Of a stretch of DNA of 64,000 bases, positions 11,002-26,737 are shown one piece after another. The stretch is from Sphaerochaeta pleomorpha str. Grapes (GTDB lineage: Bacteria > Spirochaetota > Spirochaetia > Sphaerochaetales > Sphaerochaetaceae), in the NCBI RefSeq assembly GCF_000236685.1, contig NC_016633.1, forward strand, positions 868,001 through 932,000, read 5' to 3'. The translations under genes and the position numbers were made by a program. Within the stretch, counting starts at the first letter, position 1. Every line of letters starts with the position of its first letter. The notes under the pieces are model-generated. The model saw only the letters and a program-made list of their open reading frames with translations. It was not told where the DNA came from and did no database searches.

Positions 11002-11034
11002 TATCTCCCTAAAGAATTACTTTTCAGGGAGATA
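11002..11034 (+). promoter_or_regulatory. Hairpin covering the Shine-Dalgarno of the b-type membrane protein
   Basis: TATCTCCCT (11002-11010) and AGGGAGATA (11026-11034) form a perfect 9-bp stem. An inner AAAG/CTTT pairing shortens the loop. The 3' arm contains the only good ribosome binding site (AGGGAGA) for the ATG at 11039. There is no T-run, so translational control is more likely than termination. Confidence 0.45.
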
Positions 11035-11038
11035 AAAA

Positions 11039-11449
11039 ATGGGACAGGAACTCGGAGGCTTTTTCGGATTTCTTATCATCGTATTGTATGGTTTGACCGT
11101 GCTGAATTATATTGTCAAATGGGTAAACAAACGGTATGGCGCTAGCATGAAAACCCATGAAAAAGGCTACTCGGTTTTCAAGAAATGCATGAAAATTGTC
11201 ATACGGAACCATAAACTCTTTGGTCTTCTGACAGTTGTATTCCTTTTGACCCATTTCTTTATCCAGTTCAACCAGTATGGTATCAGCATGACAGGTGTTG
11301 TAGCTGCAGGGGTCATGGTGCTTCAAGTCCTTTTGGGCCTCTACGGGTTTTTGACAAAGAACAAGGGGAAAGGCTGGTTGCTGATCCACCGTTCCATCGC
11401 TGTCATCCTGCTTCTCTCAATACTCAGCCACCTTATACTGGCTTTCTGA
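11039..11449 (+). CDS. Small four-helix membrane protein with two H-x13-H helices, putative dihaem cytochrome b
   Basis: A 136-residue protein, almost entirely membrane-embedded: TM helices near residues 8-28, 57-77, 84-105 and 115-135. Helix 2 has His58 and His72, helix 4 has His117 and His131. Both pairs are spaced H-x13-H, the arrangement by which cytochrome b of bc1 complexes and ferric reductase/NADPH oxidase membrane domains hold two stacked b haems. No flavin or NAD domain is attached, so an electron donor or acceptor must be another protein. It faces the quinone operon and lies 7 kb from the NADH dehydrogenase. The family name is unknown to me; haem binding is inferred from the spacing. 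Confidence 0.6.
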   Translation: MGQELGGFFGFLIIVLYGLTVLNYIVKWVNKRYGASMKTHEKGYSVFKKCMKIVIRNHKLFGLLTVVFLLTHFFIQFNQYGISMTGVVAAGVMVLQVLLGLYGFLTKNKGKGWLLIHRSIAVILLLSILSHLILAF

Positions 11450-11453
11450 TTTA

Positions 11454-12194
11454 TCAAGAGGATTCTCTGTCCCTCAGATGCATCCAGGGACAGAGATGTC
11501 TGTCCAAAAAGGAAAACAGGGCGAAGAACCCAGTTGCCAAGAGGCTCAGGCATACCATGCCTGCATACATATCCAGATAGTCCATCCTTGCCCAGCTGTC
11601 CATAATATACCACCCCAATCCAGTTGTCGTTGCAAAGGTTTCGGCCAAGAATAAAACGGCTGTTGCAGTACCGGTAGAAACCCTCAGTGCAGTAAACAGC
11701 GAAGGTAACACGGAAGGAAGTATGACATGTACCAAAATGGCAAACCGGGAAGCACCAAGGCTGCGTACAGAATCGACATAACGCTCATCTACGGCCTGAG
11801 CTGCATCCCTTATGACAAAATACAGCTGGAAAAATATTATCAAACCAATGAGAAATACCTTGGATAGGTTTCCAAGCCCCAAAAACAACATGATTACCGG
11901 CAATAAAGCAACCTTTGGTATCGGGTAGAGGATATAGGCAAAAGGCGTAAGCATTTTGTCGGTTTTTCGGCTCCTGCCAGCTGCGAGGCCCAGCCAGGTT
12001 GCCAGAACAGTTGCTGTAATGAGTGCAATGAAAATCCTGTAGGTCGATATTCCCAGATGTCTTACCAAAGACCCCTGTAAAAGCGCAAGCACCGTATGAG
12101 AAGCCACGGCATGGGGATAGGGAAGAAAGGGCTTCCCTGCCAAAAAGGCCAGGGCATACCACGATGCTATAAGCAAGAATCCTGCCTTCTTCAT
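11454..12194 (-). CDS. ABC transporter permease (SsuC/TauC/ThiX type)
   Basis: Inner-membrane subunit of an importer, 246 residues, six predicted TM helices, with the coupling-helix motif of this class (RSLGASRFAILVHVILPSVLPSLFTAL, in which the EAA-like segment is RSLGASRFAILVHVILP). It ends four bases from the convergent membrane-protein gene. Its ATG overlaps the ATPase stop by four bases. Permeases of this family import sulfonates, nitrate, thiamine precursors or aromatic acids. Here it is the last gene of an operon that begins with ubiD-ubiA-ubiX, so an aromatic quinone precursor is a reasonable substrate guess. Confidence 0.9.
   Translation of the reverse strand: MKKAGFLLIASWYALAFLAGKPFLPYPHAVASHTVLALLQGSLVRHLGISTYRIFIALITATVLATWLGLAAGRSRKTDKMLTPFAYILYPIPKVALLPVIMLFLGLGNLSKVFLIGLIIFFQLYFVIRDAAQAVDERYVDSVRSLGASRFAILVHVILPSVLPSLFTALRVSTGTATAVLFLAETFATTTGLGWYIMDSWARMDYLDMYAGMVCLSLLATGFFALFSFLDRHLCPWMHLRDRESS
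11464..11496. repeat. 11-bp perfect inverted repeat at convergent gene ends
   Basis: TCTCTGTCCCT (11464-11474) and AGGGACAGAGA (11486-11496) form a perfect stem with an 11-base loop. It lies inside the last codons of the permease gene, just past the stop of the convergent 136-residue gene. No T-run follows on either strand, so it could be a factor-dependent stop or an mRNA 3'-end stabiliser. Confidence 0.4.
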
Positions 12195-12952
12195 TGGGCA
12201 TTCCCCCTTTCAAGCAATTTCCGAAGCTGGACACAAGTCTCAAAATAGGAGGGGCTCTTACGGTAGTCATCCCTTTTCTGGTGATTGTTTTCGATTGTCG
12301 GAAGGAATACCGAGGAACCTTGTTTATCCCGTTCCATTACATGGATGGAATCACTGAGATACACAGCCTCTTCAATGCTATGGGTTACCATAATGCACGT
12401 CATCCCGTGACGTCTCTGGATTTTGAGCAACAATTCCTGCATATTTTCCCTATTCATGGCATCAAGAGCAGAAAAGGGTTCATCCATCAAGAGGAGGTCA
12501 GGTTCCGTAACCACTGCACGGGCGATGGCACACCGTTGCTTCTCTCCTCCTGACAGTTGCGTAGGAAAGGAACGTGACAACGATGCTATGCCAATCTCTC
12601 CCATTATCCGCATCACTTTTTCTGCAATCAGTTCCTGCGGTACTTGTTTCAAGCGGAGGCCGAGGGCAATATTGTCATATACCCGTTTCCAGGGAAGCAA
12701 TCCAAAGTCCTGGAGGATGATTGCCCTGTTACTTTGCCTATCCAATAGGTCGTTGCCATCAAAAGACAACGAGCCCGCCTCAGGCTGTAACAAACCCGAA
12801 AGCAGATAGAGCAATGTGGTCTTGCCACAACCGGAATGGCCGATTATGGCATGGACCTGCCCTTTTTCAAAGGTATGGGTGCAAGAGGAAAATAAGTTGA
12901 CTGAGCTCTTCCCCTGGCGATAGGAAAAGGATACGTCCCTGATTTCAACCAT
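12191..12952 (-). CDS. ABC transporter ATP-binding protein (SsuB/TauB type)
   Basis: Cytoplasmic ATPase of the importer, 253 residues. Walker A is GHSGCGKTT, the Q-loop is in ILQDFGLLPW, the signature is LSGGEKQR, Walker B is LLLMDEPFSALD and the switch histidine is in MVTHSIEEAVYLSD. This is the usual set for nitrate/sulfonate/taurine importers. The start codon follows the stop of the binding-protein gene directly (TAAATG), and its own stop overlaps the permease start, so the three transporter subunits are translationally coupled. No C-terminal regulatory domain is present. Confidence 0.93.
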   Translation of the reverse strand: MVEIRDVSFSYRQGKSSVNLFSSCTHTFEKGQVHAIIGHSGCGKTTLLYLLSGLLQPEAGSLSFDGNDLLDRQSNRAIILQDFGLLPWKRVYDNIALGLRLKQVPQELIAEKVMRIMGEIGIASLSRSFPTQLSGGEKQRCAIARAVVTEPDLLLMDEPFSALDAMNRENMQELLLKIQRRHGMTCIMVTHSIEEAVYLSDSIHVMERDKQGSSVFLPTIENNHQKRDDYRKSPSYFETCVQLRKLLERGNAQ

Positions 12953-13888
12953 TTACAAAGCCTGTACAACAAGCGGGTCGACCAGATCCCCATAGGAGGG
13001 TTCTGCATCTAAAAGCTGCCTACCATGCATCCAGTCGACAACTTTCTGTACCTGTGAGGGTGTAGGAACACGGGGCTTTTCATAGGTAACAAAGGAAAAA
13101 ACCGGTCCGACTGGTTGGGGAAAACCTGCCTGCTCCACCAAAAAAGTACGATATCCATCGGGGTTCGCATTGATAAGCTGGCCTGCTTCCCAATAGGCTT
13201 TGAAAACCTTTGTCAGGGTGCTACGGTTTTTATCGGAAAACGACGAGGCAAAAATCATCACCCCCGGGGCATCGGGCAACGAGGTACTGTCACCCAATGC
13301 TTTTGCACCTTTTGTAACTACCAATGTATAGAGAGGCTCCGGAAGGCAGGCTGCAGGAATCTGCCCATTGAGCAACAACTCCATCCGCACTGGGATTTTG
13401 GGAACTGCAATAAGTTTCAAATCTGCTTCAGCGACCCCGGTCGAAAGAACCAGGGAATCAGCCAGATATTCGATAATCGTGTTGCTACTGACTGCTATTT
13501 CCTTTCCAGCAAGCTCGTTGAGACTGGTAATAGCCCCATTTGGGGAGGCTGCTATACCATAACGGCCATTGGTTACAGAGAGTATTGAAATGTCAAACCC
13601 AGCCTGCTCAAGAAACAAAGCACCGAGGGTATCGCCCACCATTCCGTCTATCTTTCCTGCCTGGAACGCGGCATCACGTTCGACAGGGCTCTGAAATTTG
13701 ACCAGTTCAACAGACACCCCCTGTTTCTCGAACAGGTTCTGCCAGGAAGCGAGCATAAAGGGAAGGGAATCGACATCGGGCATGATTCCAATCCGTATTG
13801 TTTGTATTTCTGCATTTGGCTGGGCAAACAGACTGCATGCGACAACCAGCAGAAAAACCATAAGCAAACTACTCTTTTTCCCTTTCAT
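12953..13888 (-). CDS. ABC transporter substrate-binding protein, NMT1/SsuA-like
   Basis: Extracytoplasmic ligand-binding protein of about 311 residues. I prefer the ATG at 13888, with GGAG six bases before it, over the ATG at 13900 inside the end of ubiX. The signal peptide runs KGKKSSLLMVFLLVVAC, and VVAC can be read as a lipobox, giving a membrane-anchored receptor. The mature part starts with IRIGIMPDVDSLPF and has the NMT1/THI5-like pattern (AGKIDGMVGDTLGALFLEQAG; a hinge near PAACLPEPLYTLV). Ligands of this family are small anions or aromatic compounds. Location inside the ubiD-ubiA-ubiX operon suggests a benzoate- or naphthoate-like quinone precursor, which is inference. Confidence 0.85.
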   Translation of the reverse strand: MKGKKSSLLMVFLLVVACSLFAQPNAEIQTIRIGIMPDVDSLPFMLASWQNLFEKQGVSVELVKFQSPVERDAAFQAGKIDGMVGDTLGALFLEQAGFDISILSVTNGRYGIAASPNGAITSLNELAGKEIAVSSNTIIEYLADSLVLSTGVAEADLKLIAVPKIPVRMELLLNGQIPAACLPEPLYTLVVTKGAKALGDSTSLPDAPGVMIFASSFSDKNRSTLTKVFKAYWEAGQLINANPDGYRTFLVEQAGFPQPVGPVFSFVTYEKPRVPTPSQVQKVVDWMHGRQLLDAEPSYGDLVDPLVVQAL

Positions 13889-13890
13889 CT

Positions 13891-14460
13891 TCAACTCCAT
13901 CGTTTGGTATTCGTATCGGCAAGATGCAGGGAATCCAATACCCTGTCAACTGTAGAATCTATAATGTCATCCACCGTTTTTGGGTGGCAATAAAACGTAG
14001 GGACAGGGGGAAGTATCATCGCCCCTGCATTGCTCAAGGTCAACATGTTCTGCAGATGGATGGAAGACAAAGGGGTTTCCCTTGCAACCAGGACAAGGGG
14101 TCGCTTTTCCTTCAGGGCTACACTGGCGGCTCGCTCGATCAGGTTTGAGGAAAGACCGCAGGCAAGGGAACCAAGCGTACCCATCGTGCAGGGAATAACG
14201 ACCATTGCATCGATAGGGAACGAACCGCTTGCAAGGGGAGAAGCCAAGTCCCCATGGTTATGCAATCTGATCCTGTCCCCTGGCAGAAAGGCAAGCCATT
14301 CTGCTAGTGTCTTACCGGTTTCCTCAACCATTACCCTTTCACCCCAAAGAGATACTACCAGATGCACAAACACCTCTTGGTTCTGCCCTAGCCTCTGTAA
14401 CAGATGCAAAGCATATACGGAACCGGTGGCCCCGGTAATAGCGACAACAATCTGTTTCAT
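13891..14460 (-). CDS. ubiX: Flavin prenyltransferase UbiX
   Basis: Makes prenylated FMN, the cofactor of UbiD decarboxylases, from FMN and dimethylallyl phosphate. At 189 residues it has the normal size. The N-terminal ITGATGSVYALHLLQRLG is the phosphate-binding start of the flavoprotein fold; PCTMGTLGSLACGLSSNLIERAASVALKE and the LVLVARETPLSSIHLQNM stretch are diagnostic for the family. Its ATG overlaps the UbiA stop (ATGA) and its stop lies two bases before the binding-protein start, so the biosynthetic and transport genes sit in one coupled operon. Confidence 0.95.
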   Translation of the reverse strand: MKQIVVAITGATGSVYALHLLQRLGQNQEVFVHLVVSLWGERVMVEETGKTLAEWLAFLPGDRIRLHNHGDLASPLASGSFPIDAMVVIPCTMGTLGSLACGLSSNLIERAASVALKEKRPLVLVARETPLSSIHLQNMLTLSNAGAMILPPVPTFYCHPKTVDDIIDSTVDRVLDSLHLADTNTKRWS

Positions 14461-15320
14461 GGCAGGTATACCTCCAAAGCTACGAATGTAAGAAACAATA
14501 CACTGACAATTTCATTGATATGGTAAGCTGCAGTAGTCACATGTTTCAATGTACCTGGGGCAACCAAGGCATTTTCTACAAACAACAGGCTGCCCACTGC
14601 CAGGCATCCACCATAATACCAAAAACCTACCTGGTAGAAAGACCCCCAGAGCACTAAGAGGACAAATGAAACCAGATGGGAAAAAGCAGCAATATACAAT
14701 GCTTTTTTCGCACCAAACCTTGCAGGGATCGAATGCAAGCCCTGCTCACGGTCAAAGTCTATATCCTGCGTGGCATAGATGATGTCAAATCCTGCAACCC
14801 AAGTGGCAACCGCCGCAGACACGATAAAATACCTGAAGGCAAACGCTCCGTTTAACGCCAACAACGTCCCCATGGGGGCGATGGCAACCGTGGCCCCGAG
14901 AAAATAATGACAAAGATAGGTAAACCGCTTGGTATAGGAATAGGTAAAAACCATTGCCAGGGCTACCGGTAGCAAAGCGACACACAACCAGTTGAGCATA
15001 CAGGTCGAACCGACCAAAAGCAGGATACAGGCAAGGGCAAAGACCCAAAGGTCAAAGCGTGTAAGACGACTTGAAGGAAGGTGCCTTCCCGCAGTCCTTG
15101 GATTTTTGGCATCGAGAGAATGGTCCACCAACCTATTGAGGGCATTGGCACCGTTTCTTGCCCCGATGATCGCAAGGAAAATCCACAACAATTTCTGGCT
15201 TGGGATTACCCCTCCGGTTTCCAGCAACAGTGCAGAGGCAGCAAAGGGAAGCGAGAACAAGGTATGCTGGATCATAACTGCCTGGGCAATCTTCAAAGGT
15301 TTTATACTATCCTTTTTCAA
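14457..15320 (-). CDS. ubiA: UbiA-family polyprenyltransferase (4-hydroxybenzoate/MqnP type)
   Basis: Membrane prenyltransferase, 287 residues, about eight TM helices, that joins a polyprenyl diphosphate to an aromatic acid. The first Asp motif reads NRLVDHSLDAKNPRTAGR and the second YATQDIDFDREQGLHSIP, both complete. The NPRTAGR form is that of ubiquinone UbiA and of the futalosine-pathway enzyme MqnP rather than MenA. Translation starts at TTG (15320), with GAGG eight bases upstream and no better start. Three bases follow the ubiD stop. A matching polyprenyl diphosphate synthase is encoded at 20514. Product: prenylated acid, the substrate of the adjacent UbiD. Confidence 0.93.
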   Translation of the reverse strand: MKKDSIKPLKIAQAVMIQHTLFSLPFAASALLLETGGVIPSQKLLWIFLAIIGARNGANALNRLVDHSLDAKNPRTAGRHLPSSRLTRFDLWVFALACILLLVGSTCMLNWLCVALLPVALAMVFTYSYTKRFTYLCHYFLGATVAIAPMGTLLALNGAFAFRYFIVSAAVATWVAGFDIIYATQDIDFDREQGLHSIPARFGAKKALYIAAFSHLVSFVLLVLWGSFYQVGFWYYGGCLAVGSLLFVENALVAPGTLKHVTTAAYHINEIVSVLFLTFVALEVYLP

Positions 15321-15323
15321 TCT

Positions 15324-16775
15324 TTATACCTCGATCCCCAGTTGATCCCAGATTTCGTCGACATGGCGGACTACTGCACTATCCATGACGATATCATCAG
15401 GCCAAAGCCGGGTATGTCCATCGAGGGGGGTCTTCTTGGTTGCATCGATCCCCAATCTGGTTCCTTGCAGGGGAAGAGGCGAAGCATGGTCAAGGGCATC
15501 AAGGGGACCTTCCGAGAACACGACATCACGCTTCCCATCGATATTGTTGAAGACTTTCCACATTACCGTTGAGAGGTCATGGACATCGACATCAGCGTCT
15601 ACGACAATGATCATTTTGGTATACATCATTTGTCCTAGCCCCCAGAGGGCGTACATCACTTTCTTGACCTGGCCAGGGAATCGCTTTTTGATCGAAACAA
15701 TCGCACAGTTGTGGAATACCCCGGAAAGCGGCAATTCAAGGTCTACAATCTCAGGGATTACCAATTGAAGGAGCGGAAGGAACAACCGTTCAGTGGCCTT
15801 TGCCATAAAACAATCCTCCATCGGCGGTTTACCAACCACCGTTGCAGGATAGATAGGTTTCTTCTTATGGGTAATACATTGGACATGGAACACAGGATAT
15901 TCCCCTTGCAGCGAGTAATAGCCTGTATGATCACCAAAGGGACCTTCTGTATGCAGTTTTTCCTGAGGATCAACATATCCTTCGAGCACAAACTCGGCAT
16001 CTGCAGGCACTTGTAGGAGGATGGTGACACAATCGACCATATCTACCGGTTTTCCCCGTAAAAAACCTGCAAAGAGAATCTCATAGATTCCCTCGGGAAG
16101 AGGGGCTGTTGCAGCATAGGTTATGGCAGGGTCGCAACCAAGCGCCACCGCAACTGGCATCATTTCGTTTCGCTCTTTATACTTCTGATAAAAATGGGAT
16201 CCGTCCTTATGGATATGCCAATGCATCCCGGTGGTGTTTTTATCAAACACTTGCATCCGGTACATACCCAAATTGGAAACACCTGTTTCTGGGTCGCGGG
16301 TGAAGACCAGAGGCAAGGTAAAGAAAGGTCCCCCATCCTGGGGCCAGCAGGTCAGCACAGGCAGTTTTGAAAGATCGGGATTGTGATCAATCACTTCCTG
16401 GCACGCAGCTTTTCTGACTTTTTTGGGAAAGAAAGATCGGAATATCGATAATTTGGGGATAATCGAGGCAATATCAATACTCTTTGCCTGACTGAATCCC
16501 CATTTGATCAAATCATCAATTTCCTTTTGCTTCTCTTCAAGGTTTCCAACCCCCAATGCCATGGCCATACGTTTATACGACCCCATGGCATTCATCAAAA
16601 CCGGGTACTCTGATCCTTTTACCCGTTCGAATAGCAAAGCAGGTCCCCCTGCCTTACTGACACGGTCAGTAATTTCCGTTATTTCAAGATAGGGGTCGAC
16701 CTCCTGTGTAATTCTGCACAGTTCCCCTTCTGCTTCCAGTCTCTGTATAAAATCCTGTATGTCTTTGTATGCCAT
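15324..16775 (-). CDS. ubiD: UbiD-family prenyl-FMN-dependent decarboxylase
   Basis: Decarboxylates a prenylated aromatic acid in quinone synthesis, using the cofactor made by UbiX. 483 residues from the ATG at 16775; an in-frame upstream extension to 16832 lacks homology and runs into a terminator. Family hallmarks are present: MNAMGSYKRMAMALG, the MYRMQVFDKNTTGMHW segment, the catalytic-glutamate motif HTEGPFGDHTGYYS, and PATVVGKPPMEDCFM. No clear ribosome binding site precedes the start. It is the first gene of the ubiD-ubiA-ubiX-ABC operon, and lies immediately downstream of the terminator of the FMN-lipoprotein gene. UbiD could also act on a free aromatic acid, but with UbiA adjacent a quinone role is the better reading. 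Confidence 0.93.
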   Translation of the reverse strand: MAYKDIQDFIQRLEAEGELCRITQEVDPYLEITEITDRVSKAGGPALLFERVKGSEYPVLMNAMGSYKRMAMALGVGNLEEKQKEIDDLIKWGFSQAKSIDIASIIPKLSIFRSFFPKKVRKAACQEVIDHNPDLSKLPVLTCWPQDGGPFFTLPLVFTRDPETGVSNLGMYRMQVFDKNTTGMHWHIHKDGSHFYQKYKERNEMMPVAVALGCDPAITYAATAPLPEGIYEILFAGFLRGKPVDMVDCVTILLQVPADAEFVLEGYVDPQEKLHTEGPFGDHTGYYSLQGEYPVFHVQCITHKKKPIYPATVVGKPPMEDCFMAKATERLFLPLLQLVIPEIVDLELPLSGVFHNCAIVSIKKRFPGQVKKVMYALWGLGQMMYTKMIIVVDADVDVHDLSTVMWKVFNNIDGKRDVVFSEGPLDALDHASPLPLQGTRLGIDATKKTPLDGHTRLWPDDIVMDSAVVRHVDEIWDQLGIEV

Positions 16776-16796
16776 AATCAATAAGTACCACAATTC

Positions 16797-16841
16797 AAAA
16801 AAAATGTCTTGGATAGCAAGTTGGCCACCCAAGACATTTTT
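16797..16841 (-). terminator. Intrinsic terminator after the FMN-binding lipoprotein gene
   Basis: A 13-bp stem with core ATGTCTTGG/CCAAGACAT (16800-16812 with 16829-16841) has a 16-base loop and, read on the minus strand, is followed by a run of eight T. It lies 16 bp past the lipoprotein stop and 22 bp before the ubiD start. Incomplete termination here would give high lipoprotein and low ubiD-operon expression from one promoter. Confidence 0.85.
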
Positions 16842-16856
16842 ACTATCATTTAGAGG

Positions 16857-18158
16857 TTATTTCTTTACTACACCAGCAGCAAGAGCCTTGTTAACAAGGG
16901 TGAAGAAGCTTGAAACATGAATTGAGGCACCACCGATATCATCGGTATGGCCTTCACTGTCCTTGTAGGAAATCTTTGCAGGATCCTGGGTGGACAGTAG
17001 ATAATTCTCGACAGCAGCTGCCTGGACATGCCATTCAGCGCTTGCCTTGCCAATTGCAACCATGCCATAAGAACCATCGGCAGAATAGGCTTTCTTGTCA
17101 TCACCATTCTCGTTTACTCCACTCCAGTTAACATTGACAATTCTGCCATTGCTCACAAACAGGGATACAGTCTCTTTCCAGCCGGTTGAGCCAAAAGCGT
17201 CCTCACTGGCAAAGTAGGTTCCATCGGCGTAGGAACCGATGGCAACAGGACCGGCTGCGAGGGCTTTCCCGACAAGGTTGGCAAACCCGCCTACATGCAC
17301 GGACACCCCTGCAATGTCATCGGTATGACCTTCATTGTCAGAATAGGAAAGCTTGGCAAAATCCTGGTTTGCAATGAGATAGGCTTCGGCTTTCTCGGCC
17401 TGAACGTACCAGTCAGCCTGGGCTCCACCGAATTTGACCATGTTATAGTTTCCGGCTTTATCGAAAGCCTTCTTATCCTGGTTGGCCATGTTCACACCAC
17501 TCCAATCGGCACCGGCTATGCGGCCATTGATAACAGTGAGTGAAACATAGTCTTTCCAGCCTGAGGAAGCATATGCTTCATCGATTGCAAAATAAACTCC
17601 GTCGGCCAGGGGCCCACGGCCGACAGGACCTGCACTGAGAGCTTTCGCGGCAAGGTTGAAAAATGCACTTACATGCACAGAAACCCCGGCAATGTCGTCG
17701 GTATGGCCTTCATTGTCCTTGTAGGTAATCTTGGCAGGGTCCTGGGTGGAAACCAAATAGGCCTCGGCTTTGGCAGCCTGTACAGACCAGTCAGCCTGGG
17801 CATTGCCAAACTTGACCATATTGTATTTTCCAGCCTTGTCAAACGTCTTTTTATCGGCACCACCGTTACTATTGACCCCGTTCCAATCTGCGGAGACAAT
17901 TTTCCCGCCCTGTACGGTAACAGTAGCGGTTTCCTTCCACCCTGAAGAGGCAAAAGCGTCATCCATTGCGAAATATATACCATCGGCATATTTGGCAGGT
18001 TCTGCCTGCTTGGCAGGCACAGGGGCTGCAACAACTTGTTTAACTACGGTCTCAGCGGCTTCCGTTTCTGACTTAACAGCTTCCTTCGAACAGCCTGTGA
18101 CCAGCAAAGCAACGGAAGAAAGCAAGACCAAACAGGTAAGCAAAGAATTCCTTTTCAT
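16857..18158 (-). CDS. Lipoprotein with three FMN-binding-type repeats (PplA-like)
   Basis: A 433-residue lipoprotein: signal with lipobox LVTGC (Cys23), an Ala/Pro/Lys linker, then three repeats of about 120 residues starting near 57, 183 and 308. Each has the pattern DGxYF, GWK, V-x-GRI or GKI, a W-x-GVN segment, YxMV, W-x-VQA, EAYL and a closing EGHTDDI. The end motif is AGVSVHV in repeats 1 and 2 and GGASIHV in repeat 3, in the place where flavinylated proteins carry SGAT-type acceptor sites. This resembles Listeria PplA, which has two such domains and carries FMN for extracellular electron transfer. The ATG at 18158 (AGGAG upstream) is preferred to GTG at 18170. Flavin attachment is inference. 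No ApbE-type transferase is in the window. Confidence 0.82.
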   Translation of the reverse strand: MKRNSLLTCLVLLSSVALLVTGCSKEAVKSETEAAETVVKQVVAAPVPAKQAEPAKYADGIYFAMDDAFASSGWKETATVTVQGGKIVSADWNGVNSNGGADKKTFDKAGKYNMVKFGNAQADWSVQAAKAEAYLVSTQDPAKITYKDNEGHTDDIAGVSVHVSAFFNLAAKALSAGPVGRGPLADGVYFAIDEAYASSGWKDYVSLTVINGRIAGADWSGVNMANQDKKAFDKAGNYNMVKFGGAQADWYVQAEKAEAYLIANQDFAKLSYSDNEGHTDDIAGVSVHVGGFANLVGKALAAGPVAIGSYADGTYFASEDAFGSTGWKETVSLFVSNGRIVNVNWSGVNENGDDKKAYSADGSYGMVAIGKASAEWHVQAAAVENYLLSTQDPAKISYKDSEGHTDDIGGASIHVSSFFTLVNKALAAGVVKK

Positions 18159-18579
18159 AATTCTAATCACTCCTAAAATATCGGTAACTTAGCCTCAGTA
18201 TAAACGCAAGTTTTGTTCCGGTACAATATGCAAGTCGCAAGTTATTCGGGAAACCGGCAACAAACAAATCTCGAATCAGGTGTTCCATATCCCTTCGATT
18301 CCCCCACCCTTGCTGTATCAATATTTGGGAAATTCGCTCCAAGAAACATATTCTTCTGAAAAAATAACTTTTTATCGATAACTCAGAACATTCGAATTGT
18401 ATTATTTCCTAGTTTTATGCTAGACTAATTTTCGGACATTGGTTGCAGGTGTGTTTCAGGCACTTTGTAAGATTTTTATAGAACAACGAATAAATATCTT
18501 TTTGCCTCACTTTCAAAGGGATACCAAGGTATAGTCATACCAAAGACTTCCCTCAGGCACGATATAAAGGAAAAGGATT
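18159..18579. promoter_or_regulatory. Divergent regulatory region between FMN-lipoprotein and NADH dehydrogenase genes
   Basis: A 421-bp spacer between two divergent genes of the same putative pathway, so it must hold both promoters. On the plus strand, TTGTAT (18397) and TAGACT (18421) are 18 bases apart, a weak promoter candidate. TTATCGATAA (18372-18381) is a perfect 10-bp palindrome. I find no FNR/CRP-type site and no small ORF that looks real. Confidence 0.4.
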
Positions 18580-20508
18580 ATGGAAAAAAAGCGTATTGTG
18601 ATACTGGGCGGAGGTTATGCTGGGGTCCATGCAGCAAAAAAACTTCACAAAGCCTTCAAGAAAATGCAGGACAAAGTAGAAATCATCCTCATTGACAGAA
18701 ACAGACATCATATACTGATGACTGAATTGCATGAAGTTGCAGGAAACCGCGTCGATGAAGAATCTGTCAAGATCTCCTATGAACGGATTTTTGCAGGGAA
18801 GATGGTAACGGTTGTCCAGGATGAAATTGAATCCATAGACTTCGAAGGCCAAAAGCTCAAGGGAAAACGCAATGTCTATGCTTATGACCAGCTGATTATT
18901 TCCACCGGAGCCGAAGCTACAGACTTCAGAATCCCCGGCGTCAAAGACCATGCCTTTTACCTGTGGAGCCTTGAAGACGCTTTGAGGATCCGCACTCATG
19001 TTGAGCAGATGGTCAAGGAAGCATCCTTCGAACCTAACAAGGAAAAGCGAGCCCAGCTGTTGACCTTCGTGGTTGCCGGCGGTGGATTTACCGGTGTTGA
19101 ACTTGTCGGGGAACTGATTGAATGGTTACCCTTGCTCTGCAAAAAATACGGTGTGGACTATTCTGAGGTAAACCTCATCAACGCAGAGGCCTTGGGAAGT
19201 ATTTTGAACATGTTGCCCGAGAAACCCAGGGCAAAAGCCGTCAAATATATGCAGAAAAAGGGTGTCAAAATCCTCCTCAATTCTTTGATTGTCAATGTCG
19301 ATGCCGATGGTTTCACCACCAAAGACGGTACGGTGTTCAAGACCAAGACCTTAATCTGGACCTGTGGTATCAAGGGTTCTGATTTCTGTGCGAACCTCCC
19401 TATTACGGAAGGCAAGCGTGGAAGAATGCAGGTTTCCGCTTTCATGCAGTGTCCAGACCATAAAAATGTCTACCTTGCAGGTGACGGACTCTGGTACCTT
19501 GAAGACAATAACCCCGTTCCTCAGATTGTCGAGGCTGCCGAACAGACAGCTGCTACCGCTGCCGAAGGCATTATCCATACAATATATGAAGAATTGGGCC
19601 TGAAGACAAAACCCGTAAAGCCGTTCAAATCGAATTTCCATGGATTCATGGTTTCCCTTGGTGGCAAATATGCAGTTTCCCATACAGGTGGATTTTCCAT
19701 GTCCGGGTTCTTCGCCCAGATGATCAAACACTTGGTCAACATGTACTACCAGGCAGGCGTCTGTGGTATAAACGGGGCTTGGACTTACTTCAAGCATGAA
19801 ATCCTCCAGATTAAAAACAAGCGGTCTCTCATCGGTGGCATGGCTGCCTACAGGGTCCCTTCCTATTGGGTAGTGTTTTTGCGCATGTACCTCGGTGTCA
19901 TGTGGCTTATCGAAGGAATCGGGAAAATCAAAGACGGTTGGCTTACCGATACTACTGGCGGTAAAGTCTATTGGGATACCGCAGCCACTGTATGGGAAGC
20001 AGGTGCCGATGCCGTCGGTGCTGCCTCAGAGCAGGTTGCAGAGGTCGCCACTGCCGCAGTCGACGGGGTCACCCAGACAGTTGCCCAGTTTGCTCCTCCT
20101 CTCATCGCCCAGCCTTTGGCCCTGTATACCTGGATCAACACGACGTTTGTTGCCCAATTCCCCTACTTCTTCCAGCTCATGATCGTATTGGCTGAGGTTG
20201 GAATCGGATTGTGTTTCATCGGAGGTCTTTTCACCTTCCCTGCAGCAATCGTTTCCCTTGGCTTGTCTATCATGTTCCTTATCGGGGCTATGGCAGGAAA
20301 GGAAATCCTCTGGTATATGGCAGTGTCCATTGTTATGCTTGGTGGTGCTGGTCGTGCATTCGGCCTCGATTACTGGGTAATGCCTTATTTGAAAAAGGTT
20401 TGGAACAAGACTCCTCTTGCCAAGAAAACCTATCTGTTCATGGATGAACCCGAGTTCACCAAAAAGCAGATGGCAAAACGGATGGCAAAACAGAAGGATC
20501 TTATTTAA
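18580..20508 (+). CDS. ndh: Type II NADH dehydrogenase with C-terminal membrane extension
   Basis: Flavoprotein that oxidises NADH and reduces quinone at the membrane. The first 420 residues are a complete NDH-2: FAD motif ILGGGYAGVHAA, NAD motif VVAGGGFTGVELVGEL, FAD motif VYLAGDGLWY and the quinone-site stretch PQIVEAAEQTA. About 220 further residues add a first hydrophobic helix (near 430), an Ala-rich amphipathic insert, and three or four TM helices resembling DoxX proteins. Ordinary NDH-2 enzymes stop near 400-430 residues. A C-terminal TM extension is a known mark of the Listeria Ndh2 that serves extracellular electron transfer. AAAGGA precedes the ATG. The polyprenyl synthase follows after five bases. 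Confidence 0.93.
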   Translation: MEKKRIVILGGGYAGVHAAKKLHKAFKKMQDKVEIILIDRNRHHILMTELHEVAGNRVDEESVKISYERIFAGKMVTVVQDEIESIDFEGQKLKGKRNVYAYDQLIISTGAEATDFRIPGVKDHAFYLWSLEDALRIRTHVEQMVKEASFEPNKEKRAQLLTFVVAGGGFTGVELVGELIEWLPLLCKKYGVDYSEVNLINAEALGSILNMLPEKPRAKAVKYMQKKGVKILLNSLIVNVDADGFTTKDGTVFKTKTLIWTCGIKGSDFCANLPITEGKRGRMQVSAFMQCPDHKNVYLAGDGLWYLEDNNPVPQIVEAAEQTAATAAEGIIHTIYEELGLKTKPVKPFKSNFHGFMVSLGGKYAVSHTGGFSMSGFFAQMIKHLVNMYYQAGVCGINGAWTYFKHEILQIKNKRSLIGGMAAYRVPSYWVVFLRMYLGVMWLIEGIGKIKDGWLTDTTGGKVYWDTAATVWEAGADAVGAASEQVAEVATAAVDGVTQTVAQFAPPLIAQPLALYTWINTTFVAQFPYFFQLMIVLAEVGIGLCFIGGLFTFPAAIVSLGLSIMFLIGAMAGKEILWYMAVSIVMLGGAGRAFGLDYWVMPYLKKVWNKTPLAKKTYLFMDEPEFTKKQMAKRMAKQKDLI

Positions 20509-20513
20509 GCCAT

Positions 20514-21503
20514 ATGAATGATTTCTGGAATGATGAAAAAGATATCCAAACAGAATTGGAACTTGTACATGATTTGATTATCAGCACCGTGGATAAAGCC
20601 CAGGGCTTTATCCGACCGGTGCTGCATTCACATGTAAAAACACAAGGAAAACTACTTCGGCCTGCTTTGGTTCTCATTACCTCCAACCTAAGCGGAGAGA
20701 CAGACCGAAACCAAGCTGTTCGTATAGCAAGTGTACTTGAATTCATACACCTAGCTTCACTTGTCCATGACGATATAATCGACTCTGCCCAGAAACGGAG
20801 GGGGAACCTTACTGTTTTTGCACAGGTCGGGGCAAAACAAGCAGTGCTTGCAGGGGATTACCTGCTTGCCTGCGCCATGTCGTTGCTCACAGGTAAAGAA
20901 GCGGATATGGACAATGTAGTCGTTTCCAATGCTTTGGTAAGATTGTGTGAAAGCGAGTTGAACCAAGATGCCGGCCAAGGCAATTTTTTCATCTCTGAAA
21001 GGGAATATTTCAAGCGCATCGCTGGAAAGACAGCCTCGCTATTCGCCTTGAGCTGTTATGCCGGTTCCTCGACTGCAAAACTCCCAAGGGAACTGAGAAA
21101 AAGATGCCATCGCATAGGATATTCTTTGGGAATGGCCTTCCAGATCCAAGATGACATTCTTGACTTTACCGGAAGCGAGTCAAAACTCGGGAAAACCATC
21201 GGCAATGACCTGAGGTGTGGGATCCCCACCCTTCCTTTGATTCTTGCCCTGAAGACGGAGAACGAAAAAAGCACTCTGGAGCGTCCTCTCCATGATTTGC
21301 TTGCAAAAAACAAATCTCTTTCGGCTTCTGCGACCAAAAAGGCCGTTTCCCTGGTACTGAGTCTCGGTGGCGTAGAGCAGGCAAAAGTTGTAGCAGACAG
21401 GTATGGAAACAGAGCGCTAAATGACATACAATCGTTACAACACGAGAAGGTAGAAAAACAACTTTCTTCCCTTTTCGAAAAATTATCCATACGATCGAGA
21501 TAG
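20514..21503 (+). CDS. Polyprenyl diphosphate synthase (long-chain, quinone side chain)
   Basis: Trans-prenyl synthase of 329 residues that extends farnesyl or geranylgeranyl diphosphate with isopentenyl units. The first Asp-rich motif is DDIID (86-90) preceded by FIHLASLVH, the second is DDILD (213-217); GKLLRP (45-50) and the basic residues after the first motif are also present. Small residues before the first motif (LAS) fit a long product such as the quinone tail. Five bases separate it from the NADH dehydrogenase stop, so the two are co-transcribed. With the UbiA at 14457 it would supply and attach the tail, as DmkB and DmkA do in Listeria. Confidence 0.92.
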   Translation: MNDFWNDEKDIQTELELVHDLIISTVDKAQGFIRPVLHSHVKTQGKLLRPALVLITSNLSGETDRNQAVRIASVLEFIHLASLVHDDIIDSAQKRRGNLTVFAQVGAKQAVLAGDYLLACAMSLLTGKEADMDNVVVSNALVRLCESELNQDAGQGNFFISEREYFKRIAGKTASLFALSCYAGSSTAKLPRELRKRCHRIGYSLGMAFQIQDDILDFTGSESKLGKTIGNDLRCGIPTLPLILALKTENEKSTLERPLHDLLAKNKSLSASATKKAVSLVLSLGGVEQAKVVADRYGNRALNDIQSLQHEKVEKQLSSLFEKLSIRSR

Positions 21504-21514
21504 GAATTACCATA

Positions 21515-21784
21515 ATGCAAGATACAACGGAACCTACTATCGAAGAGGTAGTCTTCCATGAATCATTTGAAACTACGCTACAATTTTTACAGCATAGGGC
21601 AGAGAAAGACCATTTGACCCTCACCGATATTGAGGGGGAACTCCACCACCTCACTATCTATGAAGGCCAAGACTGGGGAGGCAGAGGGGAAATAAAAAAC
21701 TCCGAAATCCAAGGCCAGGTATATGCCTATATTGAATTCATCCAACGAATGAAAAAAAGCATGGAAGCAAAACCCTCTATCTAG
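21515..21784 (+). CDS. Small protein of unknown function (89 aa)
   Basis: I do not recognise this family. A TAGGA site precedes the ATG, it starts 11 bases after the polyprenyl synthase stop, and a strong terminator covers its stop codon, so it is very probably the third gene of the ndh operon. It is soluble, acidic in the first half (TTEPTIEEVVFHESFE), with a WGGRGE turn and a basic C-terminal helix (IEFIQRMKKSMEAK). No Cys, no signal peptide, no TM segment. The context suggests a link to quinone or NADH metabolism. Confidence 0.7.
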   Translation: MQDTTEPTIEEVVFHESFETTLQFLQHRAEKDHLTLTDIEGELHHLTIYEGQDWGGRGEIKNSEIQGQVYAYIEFIQRMKKSMEAKPSI

Positions 21785-21794
21785 AGGGTTTTTT
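21769..21794 (+). terminator. Intrinsic terminator of the ndh operon
   Basis: AACCCTCTA (21771-21779) pairs with TAGAGGGTT (21782-21790), extended by A-T pairs, and six T follow on the plus strand. It overlaps the stop codons of both convergent genes. Confidence 0.85.
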
Positions 21795-22986
21795 CACCTT
21801 CCAGGTTTCTCAACGAAGATATTTCCTCAGTCACTTCAAGGACTCCCAGGTACTCTTTTTCTGCGTTTCTCACTGCAAAGTAACGGATAAGGACAAACTT
21901 CCCTCCCCTTTGCAACCAGAAAGATTCAGCGTCTTTTTTCCCTTCCTTGAATTCCTGAATCAGTTTTTCGACTACCTTGAGACTCTTTGGGGGGTGACAG
22001 TTTGCAACCTCTCTGCCAATAATGCTGCGTGTGCGGGGAAACACCCGCTCCTTTCCCTCTGAGAAATAGCTAACCTTGTCATCCTTGCCTACAAAGGTAA
22101 TATCACAAGGAAGGGAATTGAGCACGCATTCCAGTTCTTCTGTGGCAAAGGATCCACTGGGCAAACCTATCTGCCCTCTTTCTGTCACTTCCTCTGGTTC
22201 CCCACCAAGGCTTGCATTCCAACGATACCAGGCAACTGCATCCGAGGGGGAAGCCCCTTCGATGCCTCCGTTGAAACAGAAACCAATCTCAGGGCTGTCC
22301 TTTGCGACGGTCACCCAAGCCTTTTCGTCAAGCTTTTCCATAAGGAGCGGCATCAGGATGGTATTTTCTTTGGTCACCATGCTCTGTATCTTTGCAATTA
22401 GTTCATCGAGTACCGAAAGTTCGTCAATGCCGCCTTGGGAAAATCCAATCATCAGCTTTTTCCAAAGTCCCCTGATTTCATCATCGACCCCCCACATTAC
22501 CTTAGGAGGGGCTGTCACCCCCGCAGCCTCAAGATAGGGGAACAACAGGTTTTCCTTTCTCAGGTAGTGTACATGCAACTTCGTCAGTTCCTTGACGGCT
22601 TCCACGAGTCTTTCCTTGCTGGCACTATCTGGGTGTTCGCTATATGCCATTTTTGCAGGAAAGACTTGTTTCTCCAAAAACTGCAACAGACCTTCATTTT
22701 CTTTGATGAACACAAAGGCAGGATGGCCTTTTACGGTAGAAACATCCTTTTTTGTTTGGTTTTTTTCAACGGAACCCTCAAAAACAGAGGCATGTACGTC
22801 GCACAGTTTCTGGATCTCCTCGACTTTCAAGCCCTTTTCGATCAGTTGACGTTCAGCTTCTGCGATTTCTTCCGCAGCAACCCCGGAAAAGTGTTCCAAA
22901 AACAGTTTTCTGGCTTCCTCGACAGACACTCCTGCATGCAACTGCCTAATGATGTCTTTGAGCACTCTCATTTTTTCAGCGTTCAC
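21781..22986 (-). CDS. DUF438 protein: hemerythrin-like domain plus PAS domain
   Basis: About 401 residues in three parts: an N-terminal DUF438 helical domain (MRVLKDIIRQLHAGVSVEEARKLF, of which the core is LKDIIRQLHAG), a hemerythrin-like HHE domain (GHPAFVFIKENEGLL through the YLRKENLLFPYLE helix) and a C-terminal PAS domain (SLPCDITFVGKDDKVSYF to YLGVLEVTEEIS). Such proteins are thought to sense oxygen or NO through a diiron or haem centre. I choose the GTG at 22986, because AGGAG lies eight bases upstream; an in-frame TTG at 23004 would precede that site. Fourteen bases separate it from the flavodiiron gene, so the two form an operon for oxygen/NO handling. Confidence 0.85.
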   Translation of the reverse strand: MNAEKMRVLKDIIRQLHAGVSVEEARKLFLEHFSGVAAEEIAEAERQLIEKGLKVEEIQKLCDVHASVFEGSVEKNQTKKDVSTVKGHPAFVFIKENEGLLQFLEKQVFPAKMAYSEHPDSASKERLVEAVKELTKLHVHYLRKENLLFPYLEAAGVTAPPKVMWGVDDEIRGLWKKLMIGFSQGGIDELSVLDELIAKIQSMVTKENTILMPLLMEKLDEKAWVTVAKDSPEIGFCFNGGIEGASPSDAVAWYRWNASLGGEPEEVTERGQIGLPSGSFATEELECVLNSLPCDITFVGKDDKVSYFSEGKERVFPRTRSIIGREVANCHPPKSLKVVEKLIQEFKEGKKDAESFWLQRGGKFVLIRYFAVRNAEKEYLGVLEVTEEISSLRNLEGEKTL

Positions 22987-23000
22987 TGTGTACGCTCCTT

Positions 23001-24188
23001 TCAAAGGCCTAGGGCTTCGGCAAAAGCCTTGGCCTTTTCAAAATCCGACAACCGAGGATTCCAGTTGCATTTTATTTCCGGTTCGACGACCGAAAACCCC
23101 GCTTTTTCAAGTTTTTCCCGTAACACCTTGTTCCCTTCGCCCGACCAGCCATAACAACCAAAAACCCCTGCTTTTTTGTTTTTAAATTGCAACTCTTCCA
23201 AGAAACAAATCCAGCCACCGACCGAGGAAAGTACATTGCCTCCCACCGTGGGGGACCCCAGCGCTATAGCCTTGGAACGAAACACCTCAGTCATGATCTC
23301 ATTTTTATCTGACTTGGAGATATTATATAGTTTGACTGTAAGGGAGGGGTCTGTATGTTGGAGTGCATCGGCGATTGCATGGGCCAAGGCCATCGTCCCA
23401 TTCCACATAGTGTCATAGATTACGGTAACCTGGTTTTCCTGGTAAGCGTCAGACCATCTCTGGTATTTTTCGACAATCTGCAAAGGATTTTCTCTCCAGA
23501 TTGCTCCATGGCTCGGGGCAATGATATCGATGGGGAGGTTGAGCGAGAGTATTTCCACCAGCTTCCTTTTGGCAAAGGCGGCAAAGGGCGTAAGGATGTT
23601 TGCATAATATTTCATGGCTTCATGATCGAGAAGACAGGTATCGGCCTTGTCATTGAAAAGGCCTTCCACTGCATAATGTTGCCCAAAGGCATCATTGGAG
23701 AAGAGTATGTTGTCGCCTGTAAGGTATGTGGCCATGCTATCCGGCCAATGCAACATCTTCATTTCGACGAAAACCAGCTTCTTGTTGTTTCCGATGTCTA
23801 AAGAATCTCCGGTTTTAACTACATGGAAGTTCCAATCTTCCCTATGATACTGGCCTGTAAGTGATTTGACTGCATTAGCGGTACAATAGATGGGGGTATT
23901 TGGAATTTCCTTGAGCAACGCGGGGAGAGAACCGCTGTGATCGACTTCGCCGTGGTTTGCCACGATGCAATCAATGGAAGAAAGATCAATTTCCTTTTTC
24001 AGATTATCGATGAACTCAGTACTATGAGGTTCCCATACAGTATCGATGAGTACAGTCTTTTCCTCTTGGATCAGATAGGCATTCTGGCTGGATCCATTCT
24101 TGATCGAGTAATCGGAACCGTGAAAAGACTCAAGCTCCCAGTCTAATTTTCCTACCCAAGTAACATTGTTTTTAACATTCGTCCCCAT
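23001..24188 (-). CDS. fprA: Flavodiiron protein FprA (A-type flavoprotein, O2/NO reductase)
   Basis: Reduces O2 to water or NO to N2O in anaerobes. 395 residues. The N-terminal metallo-beta-lactamase-like domain has the full diiron ligand set His79, Glu81, Asp83, His84 (ANHGEVDHSG), His147, Asp166 and His227. The C-terminal flavodoxin domain starts at VTVIYDTMWNGTMALA and includes SPTVGGNVLSSVGG. No rubredoxin or NADH-reductase domain is fused, so separate electron donors are required. GGAGG lies eight bases before the ATG. Operon with the downstream DUF438 protein. Confidence 0.95.
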   Translation of the reverse strand: MGTNVKNNVTWVGKLDWELESFHGSDYSIKNGSSQNAYLIQEEKTVLIDTVWEPHSTEFIDNLKKEIDLSSIDCIVANHGEVDHSGSLPALLKEIPNTPIYCTANAVKSLTGQYHREDWNFHVVKTGDSLDIGNNKKLVFVEMKMLHWPDSMATYLTGDNILFSNDAFGQHYAVEGLFNDKADTCLLDHEAMKYYANILTPFAAFAKRKLVEILSLNLPIDIIAPSHGAIWRENPLQIVEKYQRWSDAYQENQVTVIYDTMWNGTMALAHAIADALQHTDPSLTVKLYNISKSDKNEIMTEVFRSKAIALGSPTVGGNVLSSVGGWICFLEELQFKNKKAGVFGCYGWSGEGNKVLREKLEKAGFSVVEPEIKCNWNPRLSDFEKAKAFAEALGL

Positions 24189-24267
24189 GCTCTAATCCTC
24201 CATGTTCTTTACATAAGAATACTAAGATGAAAGGACTTGAAATCAGGATTGCCATTGATACAAGACC

Positions 24268-24295
24268 TTCAACCAAGGGGCCTCCCTTGGTTGAA
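24268..24295 (-). terminator. Strong hairpin after the CBS-domain gene
   Basis: TTCAACCAAGGG (24268-24279) and CCCTTGGTTGAA (24284-24295) are perfect inverse complements with a 4-base loop. It lies 25 bp past the CBS gene stop and about 80 bp before the flavodiiron start. The T-run after it is poor, so it may be a terminator or an RNA-stability element. Confidence 0.55.
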
Positions 24296-24320
24296 TTACT
24301 CTGTACCTGCCCGCCCTGTG

Positions 24321-24764
24321 TTAATAGGGGTTGGTAATAAAGTGTTCCAGTTGATCTATCTGGAAATCCCTTTCCTCGAGGGCTGCCTTGACCACATCGC
24401 CGATGGAAATCATGCCTACGACCTTGTCGTCTTCCATGACGGGAAGGTGGCGAAACCTTCCGGCAGTCATGAGCTGAAGGCAATCTTCCAGACTCTGGTG
24501 CGGCTTCACATAGGTTACCCCTTTTGTCATGACCTCGGAAATTTTAATGGCCGCCGTATTTAGATGTTCGGTCTTCCTGGAAAAATGTTTGACAATATCG
24601 CGTTCAGACAGAATTCCCTTGATTGCTCCCCTTTCATCAAGCACGAGCAGGGCACCGATTTTGTGTTCGGTCAATTGCAAAAGTGCATGAGATAGTGTGT
24701 CATCGGGTTTTATACTGAAAACTTTACTTCCCTTCTGGTCAAGAATCGATTGTACATTTGCCAT
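24321..24764 (-). CDS. Tandem CBS-domain protein
   Basis: A 147-residue cytoplasmic protein made of two CBS domains (residues about 5-60 and 75-135), which usually bind adenine nucleotides and regulate a partner. The first has LLVLDERGAIKGILSERDIVKHF, whose core IKGILSERDIVKHF is classic; the second has LPVMEDDKVVGMISIGDVVK. The ATG at 24764 follows AGGAGG; an in-frame extension to 24791 lacks homology. No effector domain is attached. Similar stand-alone proteins are common and their partners are mostly unknown. It is separated from its neighbours by hairpins on both sides. Confidence 0.92.
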   Translation of the reverse strand: MANVQSILDQKGSKVFSIKPDDTLSHALLQLTEHKIGALLVLDERGAIKGILSERDIVKHFSRKTEHLNTAAIKISEVMTKGVTYVKPHQSLEDCLQLMTAGRFRHLPVMEDDKVVGMISIGDVVKAALEERDFQIDQLEHFITNPY

Positions 24765-24895
24765 AAAATTCCTCCTATGATTGGAAAACAACCTGTATCC
24801 TATAAAAAGGGTAGCTCACAGCGTGCGAATTCGCAAGGAAATAATCGGAATTTACGCCAGATAGGGGGATGAGCTCAATGAATTTGCAAGGACCT

Positions 24896-26026: not shown

Positions 26027-26030
26027 TCTT

Positions 26031-26381
26031 TTATTCCTTGACGCAAGGATTTTTACAAGAGTTGGCAGTATTTGTGCCGAGTTCTTTACAGATACAGTTT
26101 TCTTTGTCTTTCCAAATGAGCTTCAGGAAAGCCTCCAAGTTCTCGAACATCTCGCTATTCAGCGAATAGGTCATCCAAGTCCCCTTGCGTTCTGATTTTA
26201 CAAGCTTGCAAGACGTCAAAAGGTTCATATGGTAACTGAGGGTCGGCTGGGTTATCGAGAAAGATTCAAGGATATCACAGGCACAAAGGGGACCACAGGA
26301 GAGCATATCGACGATCTGCAATCGTGTTTCATCCGAAAGGGCTTTGAACAACGGGATATACGAGGCATAGCCTGGCTGCAT
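26031..26381 (-). CDS. arsR: ArsR-family metalloregulator
   Basis: Arsenite-responsive winged-helix repressor of 116 residues. The ATG at 26381 has AAGGAG six bases upstream; the frame continues upstream but without homology. Features: LFKALSDETRLQIVDML, the metal-binding helix SCGPLCACDILE with two close cysteines, the recognition helix TQPTLSYHMNLL, then the wing. The C-terminus has four more cysteines (ENCICKE, SCKNPC), possibly extra arsenite ligands. It should repress its own operon in the absence of As(III). Confidence 0.93.
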   Translation of the reverse strand: MQPGYASYIPLFKALSDETRLQIVDMLSCGPLCACDILESFSITQPTLSYHMNLLTSCKLVKSERKGTWMTYSLNSEMFENLEAFLKLIWKDKENCICKELGTNTANSCKNPCVKE

Positions 26382-26737
26382 GGGCGACTCCTTATATAGA
26401 ATAGTATCAATATCATTGAATATCATCAATATAACAAGGTACCGAAAAGGACGAATACTTTTATAAAAAAAAGTATATTTTCGTTTGTTCCCAGAGGGAA
26501 GTGTTTTACATTCAAACACAGTTTAAATGCATTTCTAATTTTTATTTGATTATATCATCATTTATAATATAGTATTTTATTTTTTAATATTCTTTCTCTT
26601 ATTATTTAATGTATTTTTTTTTTTTTATATCTTGTTTAGTACTTTTCTATTCACAATTACCTTATTGACAAAACAAGCTAGGAGAGCCTATCATCCTCTT
26701 CGAATCGATATACCAATACAACAAAAGCAAGGCAGGC
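26382..26737. other. A+T-rich spacer between arsR and glycerol dehydrogenase, with a T13 tract
   Basis: The 356-bp divergent spacer holds the arsR operator at one end and, from 26521 to 26660, about 85 percent A+T by eye, including thirteen consecutive T (26614-26626). This is far from the composition of the flanking genes. It may hold UP elements or a nucleoid-protein site for the gldA promoter; no ORF in it looks real. Confidence 0.5.
26405..26434 (-). promoter_or_regulatory. Probable ArsR operator
   Basis: Just upstream of arsR, the segments TATCAATATCATTGA and TATCATCAATATA form imperfect inverted and direct repeats of ATCAA/TTGAT half-sites, the type of sequence bound by ArsR/SmtB repressors. 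Confidence 0.45.

Follow-up and report, generated by a model that had tools for sequence, protein, structure and literature searches.

Where would a fermenting spirochaete find the quinone for a flavin-based electron-transfer chain? The question arises from a locus of 11 kb in Sphaerochaeta pleomorpha str. Grapes, studied here within a window of 64,000 bases (positions 868001-932000 of a complete, single-contig genome of 3,590,853 bases). An earlier sequence-only reading had listed in it a membrane-extended type II NADH dehydrogenase (Ndh2, or NDH-2), a polyprenyl diphosphate synthase (gene pps), UbiA, UbiX, UbiD, a lipoprotein with three repeats of the flavin mononucleotide (FMN)-binding type (PplA-like, gene pplA), an ATP-binding cassette (ABC) importer and a putative dihaem membrane protein, and had interpreted them as an electron-transfer chain with its own quinone synthesis. 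The inventory was correct, as all of these genes are intact open reading frames (ORFs) in the places given (Table 1; the names come from Pfam and NCBIfam profile searches of the window's ORFs). The claim of quinone synthesis was wrong as stated, since only the last steps are encoded, and the organism seems incapable of de novo menaquinone synthesis. We put the probability at about 0.72 that the locus combines two modules, one for the salvage of a menaquinone precursor and the other for a Listeria-type flavin electron transfer.

The last steps were recognized from three proteins. The UbiD protein, encoded by the only gene of its kind in the genome, exceeds the cut-off of the menaquinone decarboxylase equivalog TIGR03701 by 164 bits and by this measure is MqnL. 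The UbiA protein is MqnP-like, scoring 275 bits with the MqnP model (under its narrow cut-off of 430) versus 108 bits with that of proteobacterial UbiA, and the UbiX protein fits the role of MqnM. Together they would constitute the final stage of the futalosine route to menaquinone, to which MqnP, MqnL and MqnM have been assigned as late enzymes (PMC4746308), and the window carries all three in one operon. The families had thus been named correctly before, but the futalosine enzymes among them had gone unrecognized. In phylogenetic trees, the window MqnL groups with MqnL of genomes that have the full futalosine pathway, with Escherichia coli UbiD outside, and the UbiA protein falls with MqnP and UbiA, at a large distance from MenA.

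As the UbiD, UbiX and UbiA families act on several aromatic acids, these enzymes and the importer might serve another such acid, for example a hydroxybenzoate or a phenol carboxylate, in the synthesis of a different prenylated redox carrier or in a catabolic route. The nearest solved relative of the window MqnL is in fact E. coli UbiD, to whose structure it aligns end to end, and E. coli UbiA is found on the same side of the tree as the window protein. However, the score on the menaquinone equivalog, the large preference of the UbiA protein for the MqnP model and the company of full-futalosine genomes in the MqnL tree make this explanation improbable, as does the recurrence of MqnL and MqnP with ndh2 and pps, which fits a quinone.

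With the enzymes read as MqnP, MqnL and MqnM, the cargo of the importer becomes predictable. In MenA-type enzymes the carboxyl group of 1,4-dihydroxy-2-naphthoate (DHNA) is lost during prenylation, whereas a futalosine-type precursor requires a separate UbiD-type decarboxylase and its UbiX partner. Hence, the presence of MqnL points to 1,4-dihydroxy-6-naphthoate as the probable substrate. That it would be imported is suggested by the absence of everything upstream of MqnL. The complete genome has no match to PF02621 (MqnA and MqnD) and none to TIGR03700 (MqnE) at an E-value of 1e-3, and its best match to MenD reaches 77 bits against a cut-off of 244. MqnC was excluded indirectly: in full-pathway genomes a second radical S-adenosylmethionine protein, taken as MqnC, scores 337-353 bits on TIGR03700, and this genome has no such match. 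Two kinds of weak matches were rejected. MenD matches near 60-80 bits, far under the cut-off, were judged to be other thiamine pyrophosphate enzymes, and MqnA/MqnD matches of 28-48 bits in relatives were judged ordinary NMT1-type binding proteins, true matches scoring at least 197 bits.

In the proposed salvage operon (mqnL, mqnP, ubiX and the genes of the binding protein, ATPase and permease), the secreted binding protein would capture, and the ABC importer bring in, a hydroxynaphthoate that other microbes release in soluble form; 1,4-dihydroxy-6-naphthoate, or a compound close to it, is the likeliest cargo. MqnP would then attach a polyprenyl tail, the product of the polyprenyl diphosphate synthase whose gene is adjacent, and MqnL, with prenyl-FMN supplied by the UbiX protein, would strip the carboxyl group to give demethylmenaquinone. 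Compared to the futalosine pathway, this genome differs in lacking MqnA, MqnD, MqnE and, by score, MqnC, and in having an ABC importer in the operon. An earlier study reported mqnP, mqnL and mqnM from no genomes other than those that have the Mqn pathway, and described the precursor transporters as still to be annotated (PMC4746308).

The binding protein itself (model with a mean predicted local distance difference test score, pLDDT, of 92.8) has SsuA and TauA as its top fold matches and also resembles PqqT, so that its fold is that of importers for small acids and for pyrroloquinoline quinone (PQQ). PqqT is a precedent for the use of an SsuA/TauA-type binding protein for a carboxylated quinone. 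The window system shares with the SsuA, TauA and PqqT importers this fold and a set of one permease and one ATPase, but its binding protein belongs to a distinct conserved subfamily linked to mqnL and mqnP, with the motifs GIMPDVDSxPF, SxNTIIEY and PKIPVRLE and with its closest named relatives in Sphaerochaeta and the Sphaerochaetaceae. The best named relatives of the importer being SsuA/TauA systems, one might suppose that a sulfonate or taurine importer merely happens to adjoin the Ubi genes. We consider such a coincidence highly improbable: all scores are far under the curated cut-offs (93 versus 163.5 bits for TIGR01728, 107 versus 342 for TauC, 185 versus 357 for the taurine ATPase), and the linkage recurs across Spirochaetota and Bacillota. 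As a transporter for a menaquinone precursor scavenged from neighboring microbes, the system is the first concrete candidate.

To see how far this linkage extends, we built a profile from nine binding proteins and searched 84,980 species genomes with it. The search found 390 relatives, the best 80 of which belong to Spirochaetota, Bacillota and a few Actinomycetota. Among 50 genomes picked by the binding protein alone, MqnL was over its cut-off in 49, the exception being a 1.8-Mb metagenome bin, against a background of 9 of 60 related genomes. MqnE was under its cut-off or absent in 39 of the 50, and true MqnA/MqnD matches (197-255 bits) occurred only in the MqnE-bearing genomes, the others showing nothing or 28-42 bits. 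The genes mqnL, mqnP or ubiX were present in the fetched binding-protein locus in 30 of the 39 MqnE-less genomes versus none of the 11 MqnE-bearing ones (Fisher p 4.5e-6, which is a guide only as the genomes were selected by the binding protein and are phylogenetically non-independent). The split is qualitatively clear.

The same counts bear on the possibility that a third, internal route yields 1,4-dihydroxy-6-naphthoate, while the cargo of the ABC importer is some unrelated or earlier compound. MqnL and MqnP without MqnA, MqnD and MqnE could indeed mean replacement enzymes, and mqnZ has been put forward as a stand-in for MqnD (PMC4746308). Yet none of the known early enzymes looked for turned up in the complete genome, and the importer accompanies MqnL in 49 of the 50 genomes found through it, sitting next to it chiefly in those without the early genes, which leaves this route with little probability. 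As a separate observation, nine Negativicutes (G091, G092, G094, G096, G098, G102, G103, G108 and G109) have MqnE and just one strong PF02621 protein, which is consistent with a missing MqnD and the proposed mqnZ substitute (PMC4746308).

In four distant spirochaetes (G057, G052, G040 and G059), mqnL, mqnP, ubiX and the binding-protein gene stand together, mostly with the ATPase and permease genes and without pplA or ndh2. Upstream of the importer operon of G057 (L100:271-2175), the peptide PAGAGN is repeated in several short ORFs, suggesting a CRISPR-like repeat array.

The second proposed module comprises Ndh2, the polyprenyl diphosphate synthase and the PplA-like lipoprotein, together with an ApbE and an EetB-like flavin adenine dinucleotide (FAD) transporter encoded elsewhere. 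Ndh2, whose identity is backed by solved NDH-2 structures (E 3e-58 to Bacillus subtilis YjlD, 9PXK), has the C-terminal membrane extension that is a feature of Listeria-type extracellular electron transfer (EET). The AlphaFold model of the lipoprotein (pLDDT 85.7) shows three equal domains, one for each repeat, and these match solved proteins of the FMN-binding type, so that the three repeats seen earlier are real. The best match is 2KZX (E 4e-39 by sequence, Z 14.6 by fold), followed by the flavinylated 3O6U (Z 13.3) and, at lower Z, by the FMN-binding domains 8P2A and 8P2B; other fold matches are at background level. A 2024 mSystems paper, which describes 3O6U as flavinylated, gives the ApbE motif as [S/T]GA[S/T]-like. 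The corresponding segments of the window repeats are DDIAGVS, DDIAGVS and DDIGGAS, those of distant homologues DAVTGAT or DGVSGAT, and flavin attachment to the serine is plausible. Electrons would pass from NADH through Ndh2 to the quinol, then to covalent FMN on the lipoprotein and finally to an acceptor in the envelope or outside.

The sequence-only reading had noted that EetA, EetB, RibU and ApbE genes are missing, and had advised a search for ApbE elsewhere in the genome. The first is true of the locus, but the genome as a whole contains two ApbE genes (C1:1067246 and C1:1094464) and one EetB-type protein of the energy-coupling factor (ECF) S family (PF07456, 118 bits, C1:1125447), all unlinked to the locus. 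Three proteins with the Pfam FMN_bind domain (C1:242014, 510099 and 1095611) were also found, none of which identifies a terminal reductase. At C1:1094329-1095853 (L108:9330-10854), the second ApbE is followed by a single FMN_bind protein with the canonical SGAT motif.

How the two modules relate was examined by a search for the lipoprotein in 60 related genomes, with stretches of up to 20 kb read around the homologues. Homologues were found in 31 genomes. Since pplA and ndh2 are together in 24 other loci (nearly always with pps unless the contig ends), while pplA has the Mqn-ABC operon as a neighbor in no loci but those of the window, G006, G016 and G029, pplA-ndh2-pps is a stable core in the genus and the Mqn-ABC operon a separable module. 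This recurrence of pplA with ndh2, along with that of the mqnL-mqnP-ubiX-binding protein-ABC operon in two phyla, places the gene layout far from chance. In G027 (Sphaerochaetaceae), a single locus reads pplA-eetA-eetB-ECF-T-like gene-apbE-ndh2-pps, the third membrane gene occupying the place of the ECF-T subunit FmnA; the EetA-type (NusG_II) and EetB-type (Hpre_diP_synt_I) names come from Pfam matches of the homologous G026 genes. ApbE lies between pplA and ndh2 in G029, G026, G038 and G027.

The link to electron transfer extends to Bacillota. Seven clusters (L135, L139, L154, L166, L177, L180 and L187, the named hosts being Petroclostridium for L139, a Thermoanaerobacteraceae for L166, Marinisporobacter for L177 and Maledivibacter for L180) unite ndh2, apbE, pps, mqnL, mqnP and the binding-protein gene, often with eetA/eetB and mostly with ubiX, and the Maledivibacter cluster also holds a pplA homologue (54% identical). 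They represent the Listeria-type gene set in which DmkA is replaced by MqnP-MqnL-UbiX and an importer. Conserved neighbors, the lack of early menaquinone genes in the genome and the recurrence in clostridia give good support to the core of the earlier proposal, a Listeria-like yet different chain in which electrons pass from NADH to a scavenged quinone and on to a flavoprotein of the envelope.

These clusters also weigh on a different use of the genes, in which the quinone module would mainly serve some other quinone-linked enzyme and pplA-ndh2 would act in oxygen or peroxide detoxification, or on a soluble periplasmic acceptor, rather than in EET. The operon does occur without adjoining pplA or ndh2 in several spirochaetes, flavodiiron- and hemerythrin-like genes adjoin the block (the hemerythrin-like one being conserved there in the genus), and nothing like an outer-membrane conduit was noticed in the part that was read. 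Against this stand the repeated embedding of the operon in ndh2-apbE-eetA-eetB-pps clusters and its position beside pplA-ndh2-pps in four Sphaerochaetaceae genomes. We find such a role unlikely, although by no means negligible.

Several observations weigh against the combination of precursor salvage and Listeria-type electron transfer. The attachment motif of the lipoprotein, DDI[A/G]G[V/A]S, is not the canonical [S/T]GA[S/T], the protein has no match to Pfam FMN_bind, and the PplA model NF041941 gives 83 bits versus a cut-off of 325, which by that model makes it a related protein of another family. The UbiA tree does not separate MqnP from E. coli UbiA, which forms a long branch. Absence of the early genes rests on profile cut-offs, and MqnE was over its cut-off in 11 of the 50 genomes (Negativicutes-type and one Actinomycetota), so that import is not strictly tied to auxotrophy. 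Most members of the genus have pplA-ndh2-pps without MqnL, and, as the genus has a MenA-type enzyme, the Mqn branch may be an alternative and not the sole route.

The MenA-type prenyltransferase is encoded separately at C1:188347. Because of it the genus can in principle use DHNA too, and the quinone pool may be supplied along two precursor routes. The gene is divergently paired with a tripartite ATP-independent periplasmic (TRAP) transporter of the TAXI type, consisting of a binding protein, DUF1850 and a fused permease (C1:184605-189195, L099:6106-10696). The pair is present in 11 genus members, most of those examined (including L105, L106, L206, L208, L209, L210, L212, L217, L218 and L222), and the transporter is a possible inlet for DHNA. 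A TAXI-TRAP system homologous to that of Sphaerochaeta (56% and 44%) lies near pplA-apbE-ndh2-mqnL in Maledivibacter halophilus (L180:14303-17400).

The window locus shares with the Listeria-type EET locus a membrane-extended Ndh2, a polyprenyl diphosphate synthase and a multi-domain flavin-type lipoprotein, with ApbE and EetB homologues in the genome, and in one family member, G027, almost all genes of the set share a single locus. It differs in that DmkA, the DHNA prenyltransferase, is missing from the locus, its place being taken by MqnP, MqnL, UbiX and the ABC importer; in that the host is a diderm; in that ApbE and EetB are unlinked; and in that the three-domain lipoprotein has a variant attachment motif. 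In Listeria, EetB and FmnA are FAD-exporting ECF subunits (PMC9973259). Lactiplantibacillus plantarum on exogenous DHNA is likewise a fermenter that uses a menaquinone precursor of its neighbors for Ndh2 and PplA, which we propose here from genes; its uptake route was called yet to be identified in 2023 (PMC10746273), whereas here a candidate dedicated importer is encoded with the enzymes.

Growth experiments support menaquinone-precursor exchange between microbes. Such exchange was proposed in 2016 with the transporters awaiting annotation (PMC4746308), and a 2017 study showed quinones to be growth factors and called the transporters undescribed. Our literature search, which covered few subscription papers, turned up no earlier publication that connects MqnP/MqnL to an importer or to such electron transfer. 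The locus names a specific, conserved transporter candidate with a predictable ligand. It would also mean that one form of flavin-based electron-transfer locus draws on a futalosine-type precursor, and would add diderm spirochaetes, for which fermentation is the usual description, to the organisms with this chemistry. A broader generalization is tentative, and we give it somewhat less than even odds: the ABC system would be the first importer dedicated to a menaquinone precursor in soluble form (1,4-dihydroxy-6-naphthoate), serving organisms across Spirochaetota and Bacillota in which the early pathway was lost or never existed, the replacement of DmkA by MqnP-MqnL-UbiX and import would define a locus type, and the TAXI-TRAP transporter of the genus would do the same for DHNA.

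Table 1. Genes of the locus, in window coordinates.
Feature	Position	Strand	Profile evidence and remarks
ABC importer permease, SsuC/TauC type	11454..12194	-	PF00528 82 bits; best NCBIfam relatives TauC/SsuC, under cut-off; kept in operon
ABC importer ATPase	12191..12952	-	PF00005 109 bits; kept in operon
Secreted binding protein, SsuA/NMT1 fold, putative naphthoate binder	12953..13900	-	PF13379/PF09084; TIGR01728 93 bits
UbiX-family flavin prenyltransferase, putative MqnM role	13891..14460	-	TIGR00421 201 bits (cut-off 109); PRK06029 205 bits (cut-off 188)
UbiA-family prenyltransferase, MqnP type	14457..15320	-	TIGR01475 268 bits (cut-off 181); MqnP the best-scoring NCBIfam family
UbiD-family decarboxylase, MqnL equivalog	15324..16832	-	TIGR03701 660 bits (cut-off 496)
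PplA-like lipoprotein, three FMN-binding-type domains, signal peptide, lipobox VTGC	16857..18170	-	
Type II NADH dehydrogenase (Ndh2), C-terminal membrane extension	18580..20508	+	PF07992 128 bits
Long-chain polyprenyl diphosphate synthase, putative DmkB role	20514..21503	+	PF00348 203 bits; HepT-like 209 bits, under equivalog cut-off

The minus-strand genes run away from an intergenic region at about 18.2-18.6 kb in the order lipoprotein, UbiD, UbiA, UbiX, binding protein, ATPase and permease, neighbors overlapping or lying no more than 24 bases apart, and the two plus-strand genes are separated by 5 bases. The putative dihaem protein of 136 amino acids (11039-11449, plus strand), which had been counted as part of the block, lies outside the conserved unit: it has no homologue in 30 related loci, its match to Ferric_reduct is sub-threshold (16.8 bits versus a cut-off of 28), and it was ruled out as a member. 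On the other side, the adjoining stretch at 21781-24791 encodes hemerythrin-like, flavodiiron-type and CBS-domain proteins (named by eye), the hemerythrin and CBS genes being kept beside pps in the genus. It is followed at 24959-26519 by an Acr3-like arsenite efflux-type transporter and an ArsR-type regulator, also named by eye.

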